DNA of 33,031 bases from Anaerolineae bacterium (lineage in GTDB: Bacteria > Chloroflexota > Anaerolineae > JACIWR01): contig JACIWR010000002.1 of assembly GCA_014360845.1 (NCBI GenBank), positions 1-33,031 on the forward strand. The letters run 5' to 3'. Below the pieces are notes generated by a model. The model had not been told where the DNA came from and searched no databases. It saw only the letters and a list, made by a program, of their open reading frames with translations. Shown in pieces: positions 23,721 to 33,031 of this stretch. Within the stretch, counting starts at the first letter, position 1. The number at the start of each line of letters is the position of its first letter. The position numbers and the translations under genes were made by a program.

Positions 23721-24080
23721 TTAACCCAACTGGGCTATTGCCTCGGCCACTTTGTTGTAGGCCTCGTCAGTGGTCATGTTGCGCAGATCGAGGGAAACAA
23801 CTTGCTGGTCAAAGTTGCCCCCTACCTCGGCGAAAGCGTCCTTGAACATCTTGCGTTGCATGACGGGATCACAAGCGCCTACGACGTAGGTGTGGCCGGG
23901 CTTGGCGTAGTCCTGCCAGAAACGGTCGCCGTCTTCCACGCAGAGCTGGGGATGCACGATGGCATACTCCACGTCCAGCTCGGTGCGCACGCGGTTGATA
24001 AGCTGCCAAAGGTTCAGGCTTTGGAAGCCGGGGCACTCCCCGGTGCAGATGCACATCACGAATCTCGGTTTATCGGCCAT
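23721..24080 (-). CDS. Stand-alone HdrA N-terminal-like domain protein
   Basis: FVMCICTGECPGFQSLNLWQLINRVRTELDVEYAIVHPQLCVEDGDRFWQDYAKPGHTYVVGACDPVMQRKMFKDAFAEVG resembles the IC.CG...C...VV.ACSPR.HE..FR..L...G region of HdrA. Confidence 0.65.
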   Translation of the reverse strand: MADKPRFVMCICTGECPGFQSLNLWQLINRVRTELDVEYAIVHPQLCVEDGDRFWQDYAKPGHTYVVGACDPVMQRKMFKDAFAEVGGNFDQQVVSLDLRNMTTDEAYNKVAEAIAQLG

Positions 24081-24242
24081 TGGTGATACCTCCGTGAAAT
24101 TTTTAGAGTTAGGGTTGATTCTCGTGACAGGGCCGCCAGGGCATAAGCGGCGGTGCTCGTTTACAACCCGCTCCTCGCCCGCGCTGGCACGGACAGCGGC
24201 GGACCTTTTTCACCGACTTTGACTTCCTTGCCGATAACATTA

Positions 24243-25397
24243 TCACTTGCCTTGCCTTATATCAGGGACTGGGGGACAGGTGCAGGGTAGCCGATGATGG
24301 CGCTTCAACGTCCGCACCAGATAAGCTACCGCCAACCCGACCACGAAGCCCACGGCCATGTTGGTCGCTACGGAAAGGGCCGCGGTGAACAAGGCCAGGT
24401 ATAGCTTCCATCCCCGCAGCTTCACCACTACTCTGGCCAGCTCGATGCCCACCAGCAGCATCATCCCGCCCACCAGGGGCATGGGGAAGGCGGCCAGCAG
24501 ATTGCCCACCGAGCGGCTCAGGAACAATCCCAGGAAGAGCTCGATAATCCCCTCCAGGATGCTGGTGCCGCCGGTGCGCGCTCCAAAGTAATACTGCCCG
24601 GCCAAACCCCCGGCCCCGTGGCACATGGGCATCCCGCCAAAGAAGGAACTGACCACGTTCATGATGCCCATGTTCAACATCAACTTGTGCTCGCTGACCG
24701 GCTTCTCCGGGAAGTAGTCGCGAATCAGAGCCGCGGTGGCGATGACGGCATTGGTGATGGACAGCGGAATCTGGGCGAAACCGGCCAGCAACATGGCCCG
24801 CCAGACATCTTCTAGCCGGGGCACCGTCAACGGCGGCAGGGTCAGAGTCAACTCCAGCGAACCCCGCAGCTCCCCACGCCAAGCGATGATGCCTATCCCC
24901 AGGGCCATGAGCACAATGGACGCCGGGGCGTAGCGGTTCTGGCGCAGGGTGAGCACGATGATGACGGCCAACACTCCCAGCAGCGGGGCTGGTCGCATCA
25001 TCTTGAGCCCCGTCCAGGCCAGCGTTACGCCCAGGGCCAACTGAATGCCCCGCACCAGAAAGGTCGGCGTGATGGCGATGATCTTGCGCAGCGCCCCGCT
25101 GAAGACCAGCAGAAACCAGGTCAGGCCCAGACCGAAGCCCGAGGCGTAGACCAGCGAGGCCGGCCACTGTTGGGTGATGGCGGCCACGGCGATCACCTTT
25201 TTGGGTTGCAGGGGCATGGGCAGGCGGTAGATGAGCCCGATGGCGATGTTGGTCAGGCCCATCATCACGAACAGTCCCGCCGGATTGAGTCCGTTGACCA
25301 CGATGAAGCCGATGGCCAGGGGGAACAAGGTGCCGAAATCCCCCATGGACCCGGCCAGCTCCCGCAGGTTGAACTCGAAATCTTTGTGCTTACTCAT
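24243..25397 (-). CDS. Putative sulfate/molybdate transporter (MOT1-like)
   Basis: FNLRELAGSMGDFGTLFPLAIGFIVVNGLNPAGLFVMMGLTNIAIGLIYRLPMPLQPKKVIAVAAI and MCHGAGGLAGQYYFGARTGGTSILEG are characteristic of MOT1-type transporters. Confidence 0.85.
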   Translation of the reverse strand: MSKHKDFEFNLRELAGSMGDFGTLFPLAIGFIVVNGLNPAGLFVMMGLTNIAIGLIYRLPMPLQPKKVIAVAAITQQWPASLVYASGFGLGLTWFLLVFSGALRKIIAITPTFLVRGIQLALGVTLAWTGLKMMRPAPLLGVLAVIIVLTLRQNRYAPASIVLMALGIGIIAWRGELRGSLELTLTLPPLTVPRLEDVWRAMLLAGFAQIPLSITNAVIATAALIRDYFPEKPVSEHKLMLNMGIMNVVSSFFGGMPMCHGAGGLAGQYYFGARTGGTSILEGIIELFLGLFLSRSVGNLLAAFPMPLVGGMMLLVGIELARVVVKLRGWKLYLALFTAALSVATNMAVGFVVGLAVAYLVRTLKRHHRLPCTCPPVPDIRQGK

Positions 25398-25692
25398 CTC
25401 CGCCTTGGTCAGGCTGCGGTTTCAGCGATGACTCGGCTACGATGGTGCGTGCTCTGCCGGCCATAAGCACTTCTGCCACGGCGATGGCCTCTCGCATTTC
25501 CATATCACTGGCTCCCAATCTGCGCGCACGGGCAGAATGGTTCTCAAATCAGGGGCCGCATCCCGTGGCCAGGGCCACACTGAGCCCGATCAATTGCTTC
25601 GTCTTGCGGTCCAGTGCGCCGTCGGCGAAGACGGTGCGATAAAAATCAACGAACTTCTGATTGATTTCGGGATTGACCTCCAGCAGCGTCAT
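25390..25692 (-). CDS. AhpD/carboxymuconolactone decarboxylase-like protein, candidate selenoprotein (in-frame TGA at codon 48, CxxU)
   Basis: Manual minus-strand translation: MTLLEVNPEINQKFVDFYRTVFADGALDRKTKQLIGLSVALATGCGP[TGA]FENHSARARRLGASDMEMREAIAVAEVLMAGRARTIVAESSLKPQPDQGGDE*. The TGA (25549-25551) sits at the second Cys of the family CxxC...H motif; homologous sequence continues in the same frame. Overlaps the next gene's start. Confidence 0.82.
25515..25540 (-). promoter_or_regulatory. Candidate bacterial SECIS hairpin immediately 3' of the in-frame TGA
   Basis: mRNA-sense CCA-U-UCUGC-[CCGUGCGC]-GCAGA-U-UGG: 5-bp upper stem, U-U mismatch, 3-bp lower stem, GU in the apical loop; loop G is 20 nt after UGA. 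Confidence 0.6.
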
Positions 25693-25787: not shown

Positions 25788-26072
25788 TCAGCAGGTTTCT
25801 TCCAGCAATGAGAGGTGGTCTCCGTCTTGTAGCGGGGCCTTTTCATCGAAATTACGCACGGCATATCGCCCACCCACGTTCAGCAGGTAAGGCCCCACGA
25901 TGTCGTGTTTGTCTGCGGAGATAACCTCTCCCACCAACGCCGGCAGTGCCCGGGCCAGGGCGGCAAGCACATCGCGCCAGGTGGCCTCCTCGGCCACGGT
26001 GATGGTCACCTCTTTCCGGTCGGCTATGATCCGCGCCGGTCCGGTCAGCTCGACGATCAGTTGTTTGCTCAT
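25788..26072 (-). CDS. ThiS/MoaD-like ubiquitin-fold protein ending in ...LLEETC rather than GG
   Basis: MSKQLIVELTGPARIIADRKEVTITVAEEATWRDVLAALARALPALVGEVI...YLLNVGGRYAVRNFDEKAPLQDGDHLSLLEETC; AGGAGG RBS. Confidence 0.78.
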   Translation of the reverse strand: MSKQLIVELTGPARIIADRKEVTITVAEEATWRDVLAALARALPALVGEVISADKHDIVGPYLLNVGGRYAVRNFDEKAPLQDGDHLSLLEETC

Positions 26073-26104
26073 TCGTAATCCTCCTCGGGTGACAGTCACC
26101 TGAC

Positions 26105-27043
26105 TTATGCGGCCAGCATCCCGCGGATGATGACATCCACAGCCGTCTCCTCGTCCAGGCCGCGCGACATCAGCGTCTCCAGTTCTTTCTTGTTCACCGT
26201 GCCAATGGCCGCCTCGTGAGTCACATAGGCCCGGTCATCCCGCACCTTCACGATGGGGACGGCATTGGCCACGGCCCGATCGCGCACCACCTCGATGCAG
26301 TCCACGTGACCGCGGGCGAAGGGAGCGTTGCCCTCGGTGGCACCAATCACCTCGCTGGTGGCTTCATCCCGCACAGCGATGCGCGATTTGGCCAGCCCGC
26401 GCGCGTGTTCCCCGTTGAGGCGAATGGTCTCCTTGACCGTGATGGCGTCGTTCCCGTAGCCGTAGGCTTTGGCCACGAGTTCGGCCACGCCGTGGGCGGC
26501 CACGTCCACCACATAGTCGAAATCCAGCTTCCCCACTCGTCCCGTGGTCAGAGCGAACTCGGAGCTGTAGTACCCGCCCTCGTCCACCTTGACCTGGGCT
26601 TTGGGCACCACCTCCACGCCGCCGGCCTCACCGTGGTAATGAGTCTCAGCGTATTTCATGGTGGCGTTCTTGCCCACGTGGATGCGGGCCTCCATCAGGT
26701 GTCGCACGTTGACGGCGTTGGGGAAGGTGCAATGGGCGATGAACTCGGCCCGCGCCCCGTCCCCAATCTCAAACTCGGGCAAAATCTCCTGCACGCCCTC
26801 GGCGGGGATCACCCCAAAGCACAGGTGGGCCGGGATGTCCAGTTGTGCTCCGGGCTCAACGATGACCTTGACCCGCACGCCGTGCTCGATCTCCTCCGGC
26901 TCGATACGCACCCCTGGTACCTGGTTAGCTCCCAACACGCGGTTGCCGCTGATGACCAGGCTGGCCACTTTGGGCGAGCGCAGAAAGTTGGGATCACCTC
27001 CCGATCGCTCGTAGGCTTTCAGAATGGCTTCAAAGTCGCTCAT
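26105..27043 (-). CDS. SufB/SufD-family Fe-S cluster assembly scaffold
   Basis: YAETHYHGEAGGVEVVPKAQVKVDEGGYYSSEFALTTGRVGKLDFDYVVD, GATEGNAPFARGHVDCIEVVRD, VTHEAAIGTVNKKELETLMSRGLDEETAVDVIIRGML. Confidence 0.9.
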   Translation of the reverse strand: MSDFEAILKAYERSGGDPNFLRSPKVASLVISGNRVLGANQVPGVRIEPEEIEHGVRVKVIVEPGAQLDIPAHLCFGVIPAEGVQEILPEFEIGDGARAEFIAHCTFPNAVNVRHLMEARIHVGKNATMKYAETHYHGEAGGVEVVPKAQVKVDEGGYYSSEFALTTGRVGKLDFDYVVDVAAHGVAELVAKAYGYGNDAITVKETIRLNGEHARGLAKSRIAVRDEATSEVIGATEGNAPFARGHVDCIEVVRDRAVANAVPIVKVRDDRAYVTHEAAIGTVNKKELETLMSRGLDEETAVDVIIRGMLAA

Positions 27044-27785
27044 AGCCCCCTCCTGGTGCTTCTACGGGTCCGGCTACCTCGCAGGGGAGACAGCGGCGGG
27101 CGTAATGTTCGCGCACTGTTTGCGGCTCGCCCACGCGCACGATCTCCCCTTCGCACATCAGCGCGGCCACGTCGGCTACCGGCACCATCTCGTCACGATG
27201 GGTGATGAGCAGCACCGTTGTGCCTTCCGCGGCCATGCGCCGGATGAGGCGCGCGATGTCGTCCAGCGAGAGCACGTCAATCCCCGAATCCGGTTCGTCC
27301 AGAATGGCCAGCCGGGGACGCATGGCGTAGACGGCGGCCAGCTCGATACGCTTCCGTTCGCCGCCGGAAAGAGCATCGTTGACCGTGCGCTCCAGGTAGA
27401 CCTGAGGCGAGAGAGCGACAGCGGCTAATGCTTCCTCCACGCGCGCTGGTGATGGCTCTTTCATCCCCAGGGTTAGATAATCCTTTACTTTCAAACCCTC
27501 GAAGTGGGCCGGATTCTGCCAGGCCAGGGTCAGGCCCAGCCGCGCCCGCTCGGTGATGGACATGGTGGTGATGTCCTGTCCGGCGAAGAGAATTCGGCCT
27601 CGGTCGGGGGTGTATTCGGCGCAGCCCATCAAAGTATAGGCCAGGGTAGACTTGCCCGAACCGTTGCGGCCCAGCAATCCGTACACCTGGCCGGGGGCGA
27701 TGGTCATGTTCACTCCACGCAAAATCTTCTGGCCGTTGCGTTCCAAGTGCAAATCCTCGATTTTCAAAAGGAATTCGTCATCCAT
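27030..27785 (-). CDS. sufC: SufC-like Fe-S assembly ATPase
   Basis: LKIEDLHLERNGQKILRGVNMTIAPGQVYGLLGRNGSGKSTLAYTLMGC, NDALSGGERKRIELAAVYAMRPRLAILDEPDSGIDVLSL; overlaps the SufB-like gene. Confidence 0.92.
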   Translation of the reverse strand: MDDEFLLKIEDLHLERNGQKILRGVNMTIAPGQVYGLLGRNGSGKSTLAYTLMGCAEYTPDRGRILFAGQDITTMSITERARLGLTLAWQNPAHFEGLKVKDYLTLGMKEPSPARVEEALAAVALSPQVYLERTVNDALSGGERKRIELAAVYAMRPRLAILDEPDSGIDVLSLDDIARLIRRMAAEGTTVLLITHRDEMVPVADVAALMCEGEIVRVGEPQTVREHYARRCLPCEVAGPVEAPGGGYERL

Positions 27786-31616: not shown

Positions 31617-32955
31617 TTATACTCTAACTCCAAGCTCGACGCAAAAGCGGGTGTTTTCCGAATCGAGATGGGTGACGACGCCAGTGAGCCCGTCCACTTC
31701 AACTAAATCGCCATCGCGCAAAAGGGCGGTGATGCCCGGGATGCCGGCCACAGCGGGCAGGCCGTACTCGCGGGCTACCACCGCGCCATGGGAGAGTTGC
31801 CCGCCGCGCTCCATGATCAACCCGGCCAAACGACCGAACAGGGGTGTCCAGCCGGGATCGGTGCTGCGCGTGACCAGCACGTCGCCAGGCCTGATCTTGT
31901 CGAATTGTTGCGGGCTGAGCACCACTCGCGCCGGGCCCCGGGCTACTCCCGGACTGACCGCTCGTCCGCGCCAGCGGGTCTCGTCGGTGACGGTCTCGGT
32001 CAGCGGTTGTGTGCCGCGCAGGAAGGCAGGATAGGACAGATGGGGGGCCAGCTCCCACTCCCGTTGCAGGCGCTCGAACTCCTGCCGCCGGGCTGCTGCC
32101 ATTCTGTAGGACGGGATGCCAGCGTTCGACTGAGCCCCTTCGATTACACTCAGGGTATAGCTCACGCCGAAGTCCCGTCCTACGCTGCGTTTTTCGAGAA
32201 CGATCTTTTGTATCTTCTCAATAATTTGGGGTAGGGGCAGGTCTTGCACCTGCCCGCCTGGGCGACCGCAAGGGTTCGCCCCTACATTTTGAGAAGATAC
32301 GATCTTTTCGATCTCGCCGATGGTCAGGAAGAAAACGTCGTCGGCCTGAGCCAGCAATCCCTCGTTGGCCAGCCTCTCCCCGATGAGCAGGAAAGCGCGG
32401 CGTTGGAGGGCCAGGGCCCGTTGCCAGTGGAAGCGCTGCTCCTCGCGCAGGATCACGTATTCCCGGGCCAGGGCCAGCACCCAGTCGAAGAGGCGACATC
32501 GCAGGCGGCCCAAGAACTGTCTTCTCAGCGCGGCTCGGACTTTGTCCTCGGTGGCCTGACGCTCGGCAGCGCGGGCGGCCAGGTCTGGTGGGGTAGGGGG
32601 CAGGCTTTGCAGTAGTCGCCGGACCTGGGTGGGGTCGTCGGCGAAGGTGGGATTGTAGATGTCGAGGGAGAAAGAGCGATGGCCGTAGCGGGCCAGGAAA
32701 TCCTGCCAGGCTGGCGATGACCCATTGTCTCCTCCGGCGCTTTGACACAGCTCGTACAGGGCCAGGTCCATTTCGACGGATTTATTGGGCAGGCCAATCA
32801 GGAGGCGCGAGACCGTGTCACCATCGCCGACGAACCACTCCAACACGGCCAGGGTCAGGTCGGCGGCGGTCAAACTCCAGCGATGGATGCTCAACAGCTT
32901 GCGATGCCACTCCTGCAGTTCCCTCACCACTTCCCAGAGTTCCCCCGGTGGGCCG
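31617..32955 (-). CDS. PEP-utilising enzyme (PEP synthase/PPDK swivelling-domain protein), 5'-truncated
   Basis: GDVLVTRSTDPGWTPLFGRLAGLIMERGGQLSHGAVVAREYGLPAVAGIPGITALLRDGDLVEVDGLTG; reading frame continues upstream of the listed ORF (PGELWEVVRELQEWH) until the poly-G tail. Confidence 0.88.
32231..32285. repeat. 55-bp palindromic dispersed-type repeat inserted in-frame in the PEP-utilising enzyme gene
   Basis: GTAGGGGCAGGTCTTGCACCTGCCCGCCTGGGCGACCGCAAGGGTTCGCCCCTAC: 8-bp terminal inverted repeats and two internal hairpins; flanked by GTATCTTCTCAA/TTGAGAAGATAC (32210-32221/32289-32300). Confidence 0.8.
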
Positions 32956-32971
32956 GGGTGGGGTGGGTGGG

Positions 32972-33029
<58 letters not shown>

Positions 33030-33031
33030 TT

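Follow-up and report, generated by a model that had tools for sequence, protein, structure and literature searches.

An in-frame UGA in an Anaerolineae CMD/AhpD-like gene most likely encodes selenocysteine and is followed by a candidate SECIS hairpin

Does the UGA that interrupts a small redox gene of an Anaerolineae bacterium terminate translation, or is it read as selenocysteine (Sec)? The gene lies in a 33,031-nt stretch of contig JACIWR010000002.1, referred to here as the window. It occupies positions 25390-25692 on the minus strand, belongs to the AhpD/CMD-like group (PF02627) and contains a single in-frame UGA at 25549-25551. Reading through this codon yields a product of 100 amino acids with the motif C45-G-P-U48-F-E-N-H52 (in context, ...GCGPUFENHSARARRLG...). 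When scored through the UGA, the product matched the Pfam CMD/AhpD model with 58.7 bits (cut-off 23), which places it within the CMD domain family, and at the sequence level it also matched CMD/AhpD proteins of known structure, 3bey and 7y4r among them. Comparison with cysteine-containing homologues aligned the UGA with the second Cys of the CxxC motif, CxxUxxxH in the window corresponding to CxxCxxxH in the homologues. Most likely, the internal UGA encodes Sec and the product is a small redox protein of a type known before; an annotation that treats UGA as a stop only would truncate the gene. A literature search returned no report of such a selenoprotein gene in this Anaerolineae lineage.

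CMD-like and AhpD-like CxxU selenoproteins have been described before (PMC1088965, PMC1794560, PMC13188914). They feature in the Sargasso Sea selenoproteome (PMC1088965), and those of the PF02627 CMD-like type have an entry in PMC13188914. Like them, the window protein has a CMD/AhpD domain in which a predicted Sec replaces the second Cys of CxxC, and it shares with them the existence of Cys homologues and a bacterial SECIS element—here a candidate one—immediately downstream of the codon. Unlike them, it is a stand-alone protein of 100 amino acids in a neighborhood of SufC, SufBD-like, MoaD-like and MOT1 transporter genes. Its best NCBIfam match (69.7 bits) was to the CxxU-containing AhpD domain of the arsenite methyltransferase/AhpD selenoprotein NF041537, but the window protein is devoid of an ArsM domain and stays far below that model's cut-off of 510; likewise, with 50.6 bits it does not reach the cut-off of 110 for the GSU3128 family (NF041047). 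The gene adds one selenoprotein to the already catalogued CxxU CMD/AhpD-like type, without reaching the specific NCBIfam selenoprotein models.

Inspection of homologues revealed a UGA at the corresponding residue in nine genomes of the same phylum (G000, the genome studied here, as well as G006, G018, G266, G120, G516, G466, G586 and G481), alongside 32 distinct homologues with Cys. The same-genus orthologue in G006 retains the UGA at 86% identity, while G516, G466, G586 and G481 contribute more distant UGA-bearing homologues. A scan of genome contigs returned one close relative, a scan of viral contigs no homologue, and a plasmid search distant homologues only, all below 60% identity. Relative to the same-genus orthologue, dN/dS amounted to 0.085 upstream of the UGA and to 0.141 downstream of it, which, judged from these substitution patterns, places the reading frame past the codon under purifying selection. 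The orthologue in G018 (locus L024, around 1680-1700) appears to have lost one base past the hairpin, which puts the sequence out of frame and reflects either an assembly error or real decay.

Were the UGA an ordinary stop, the locus would be a pseudogene or would encode a protein of 47 aa with noncoding sequence behind it, and the hairpin downstream would have formed by chance. The unexceptional stability of this hairpin and the failure to find a tRNA-Sec gene in the assembly (both detailed below) would fit such a scenario, yet purifying selection after the codon, retention of the UGA at one residue across nine genomes, some of them distant, Cys at this position in other homologues and the presence of selA, selB and a UGA-containing selD all speak against it. 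Mainly because of the conservation, we deem this reading very improbable. The original prediction had taken the hairpin as support for recoding over a pseudogene. Recoding indeed appears well supported, but mainly on comparative and genomic evidence rather than by the hairpin: the case is strong because a PF02627 protein carries UGA in place of Cys, because of the dN/dS values and the nine UGA homologues, and because selA, selB and selD are encoded in the genome.

The selD gene of this genome (contig C189, 1137-2066; locus L018) harbors an in-frame UGA of its own. The orthologues in G006 and G018 carry this UGA as well, and ~17 nt downstream of the codon a hairpin with a small loop containing G can be made out by eye. 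Across the genomes compared, the presence of selA does not separate those with UGA from those with Cys. A tRNA-Sec gene was found neither in the assembly (~90% complete, 578 contigs), as judged by search and inspection of a few contigs, nor on the contigs bearing selA, selB and selD; Rfam tRNA-Sec matches in the genome turned out to be tRNAs for Ser, Leu, Trp and others. The neighborhood that contains tRNA-Sec in G006 has a matching contig here, without tRNA-Sec. Since a tRNA-Sec with anticodon TCA is present in G006, a member of the same genus, and in other relatives, its absence is likely, though not proven, to be an assembly gap. In G466, the UGA-containing CMD gene is closely followed by a peroxiredoxin-like frame with the sequence ANW-UGA-PYC (UxxC; locus L076, about 2062-2400); going by its sequence, this frame is likely a second selenoprotein, its stop having been seen only as an asterisk in the translation.

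The codon might alternatively be read as another amino acid, through a change of the genetic code or nonsense suppression. Nothing specific points that way, beyond the fact that an in-frame UGA alone cannot distinguish between these options. Against it, UGA serves as the stop codon of other genes in the window (the MoaD-like gene at 25788 is one), the UGA in question falls exactly on the catalytic Cys, and the Sec machinery is present, rendering this explanation scarcely credible.

We consider it likely that the gene encodes a CMD/AhpD-like CxxU selenoprotein whose UGA is decoded as Sec via SelB and the downstream hairpin. Specifically, we infer that SelB binds the hairpin at 25515-25540, that Sec is inserted and that the product is redox-active, along the following route. 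A complex of SelB-GTP and Sec-tRNA-Sec would bind the hairpin at its GU loop, 17-19 nt past the UGA, and deliver Sec to the ribosomal A site at this codon, giving rise to a 100-residue CMD/AhpD-like thiol oxidoreductase with an active-site CxxU in place of CxxC. Without SelB-mediated delivery, termination would leave a 47-residue fragment.

From the recoded codon onward, the mRNA reads UGA-UUUGAGAACCAUUCUGCCCGUGCGCGCAGAUUGG. RNAfold returned the hairpin CCA-U-UCUGC / GCAGA-U-UGG with loop CCGUGCGC (25515-25540, minus strand) as both the minimum free energy (MFE) and the centroid structure, at -11.4 kcal/mol, bearing out the sequence, coordinates and base pairing that had been assigned to it. 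The accompanying claim of a GU apical loop about 20 nt past the UGA held in part. In the MFE structure, the loop comprises 8 nt, starts 17 nt past the UGA and has CC as its first bases. In an alternative structure only 0.2 kcal/mol above the MFE (-11.2 kcal/mol), C19 pairs with G24, and the resulting apical C(GUGC)G places a GUGC loop (25526-25529, minus strand), with the GU expected to contact SelB, 19 nt past the UGA.

All points of the published bSECIS model were found in this near-MFE form, including the start of the loop, for which the MFE structure with its leading C,C falls short. The remaining features hold for the window hairpin in general: the upper stem UCUGC/GCAGA has 5 bp (4-16 bp in the model), the spacing from UGA to apical loop is 17 nt (MFE) or 19 nt (near-MFE) within a range of 16-37 nt, and the energy of -11.4 kcal/mol lies below the limit of -7.5 kcal/mol. 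In G006 and G018, folds of 45-52 nt likewise fell below -7.5 kcal/mol, but the local hairpins came only to -5.8 to -7.4 and -6.3 kcal/mol. Compared with the bacterial SECIS consensus (bSECIS/bSECISearch), the element is thus alike in its position directly after the UGA with a spacing of 17-19 nt, its small GU-first loop in the near-MFE form, its stem of at least 4 bp and its MFE below -7.5 kcal/mol; it departs from the consensus in the 8-nt, CC-first loop of the MFE structure, in its C-C and U-U mismatches and in being weaker in the sister species. As a predicted insertion signal, the hairpin is believable but not outstanding.

How readily would such a hairpin arise by chance? Dinucleotide shuffling gave z = -1.32, with 18 of 200 shuffled sequences at least as stable. 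Codon-matched recodings of the same peptide folded at a mean of -12.2 kcal/mol, and 59% of them were at least as stable as the native hairpin, so the comparison with codon-matched controls, a refuting check named in the original prediction, spoke against the hairpin as evidence. Hairpins with a GG/GU loop that satisfy the SECIS model also occurred at ~6.5% of ordinary in-frame positions of the window and in 21% of synonymous recodings of the peptide. The hairpin is no more stable than expected by chance and, taken alone, is weak thermodynamic evidence for recoding; we rejected its energy as an argument in its own right. Stable hairpins after a given codon are common in GC-rich genes, and SECIS calls should rest on comparative evidence.

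Comparison of the UGA orthologues gave a mixed picture of stem conservation. Between the window gene and its two closest relatives there were three disrupting and no compensatory changes: G006 breaks the stem pair C10-G33, whereas G018 breaks U13-A30 and C17-G26, the latter re-forming through shifted pairing. All three share an identical CUG/CAG core and GUGC loop. This pattern leaves room for a variant in which the UGA is still read as Sec but the working SECIS consists of the apical part only (CUG...CAG plus the GUGC loop) or of another pairing such as that of G018 (CUGGC-CGUGC-GC-G-CAG), the lower CCA/UGG stem being incidental. The bSECIS model, whose sole stem requirement is an upper stem of 4-16 bp (PMC13188914), would accommodate such a minimal element; in the window itself, however, both the MFE and the centroid structure contain the entire stem, and we view the variant as possible but somewhat doubtful.

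Hairpins whose loop begins with GU or GG were present in 9 of 9 UGA genes as opposed to 8 of 32 distinct Cys homologues (P = 7e-5; spacing 16-37, energy limit -6 kcal/mol, structures up to 2 kcal/mol from the MFE). Loop spacing was 17-19 in seven of the nine and 29 in the other two, and narrowing the range to 16-20 retained 7 of 9 UGA and 4 of 32 Cys genes (P = 4e-4). These P values are optimistic because the relaxed criteria with the -6 kcal/mol limit were adopted after stricter ones, applied to a UGA set that was still incomplete, had given no significant difference (3/6 versus 6/33, P = 0.12), and because the sequences form about three or four related groups, the counts being uncorrected for relatedness. 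Synonymous sites downstream of the codon were frozen between G000 and G018, with 2 of 14 changed in the 17 codons after the UGA versus 28 of 53 elsewhere (Fisher P = 0.014); a corresponding test against G006 pointed in the same direction without reaching significance (P = 0.13). Between G466 and G481, one stem pair, read by eye, switched from U-A to C-G on both sides. The expectation of a conserved stem was therefore not borne out pair by pair in the closest relatives, while a G[U/G]-loop hairpin is common to all nine UGA genes.

The selenoprotein gene sits in a gene cluster in which the SufC-like, SufB/D-like, MoaD-like and MOT1-like genes likewise lie on the minus strand. Upstream are genes for an ArsR protein, a SufC-like ABC ATPase (27030-27785; TIGR01978, 179.3 bits, below the cut-off of 212.8), a single-domain SufB/D-like protein with a SufBD core (26105-27043; PF01458, 60.9 bits, cut-off 27) and a small MoaD/ThiS/SAMP1-like protein (25788-26099; NCBIfam SAMP1, 29.5 bits, below the cut-off of 60). 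Immediately downstream, a MOT1-like molybdate/sulfate transporter gene (24243-25397; PF16983, 164.9 bits, cut-off 30) overlaps with its start the end of the selenoprotein gene, followed by genes for a 119-aa protein and a ferredoxin. Gene order is kept in the same-genus locus L008; G018 keeps ArsR, the selenoprotein, the 119-aa protein and ferredoxin, with SufC/SufBD further away. It is conceivable, if rather unlikely, that the CMD-CxxU selenoprotein is specific to this lineage and serves a sulfur-handling module of SufC, SufBD-like and MoaD-like proteins, together with a MOT1-type transporter, as its redox partner. This would be a role for Sec in sulfur or molybdenum/metal trafficking that is not yet on record.

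Further features of the window deserve mention. The 119-aa protein (MADKPRFVMCICTGECPGFQ...; 23721-24080) gave no match in Pfam or NCBIfam; G018 and G006 encode versions with 79-92% identity, and its gene accompanies that of the CxxU protein. At 24109-24240, a short frame rich in Cys and Arg (MLSARKSKSVKKVRRCPCQRGRGAGCKRAPPLMPWRPC) bears a loose resemblance to a frame that lies downstream of the G266 CxxU gene. At the end of the window (32950-33031), a long homopolymer-like tract, poly-Pro/poly-Gly in translation, is probably a low-complexity contig edge. Finally, the palindrome GGTGACNGTCACC at 26088-26100, adjoining the SufBD-like gene, recurs in L101 (1387-1417), L028 (1689-1719), L066 (1356-1386) and L053 (1017-1029); its settings elsewhere include positions beside selA, near the G120 selD, near the G018 tRNA-Sec and at the CMD gene of G120, in its truncated 5' portion. 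It is probably a dispersed repeat, the loci compared being biased towards selenium genes.
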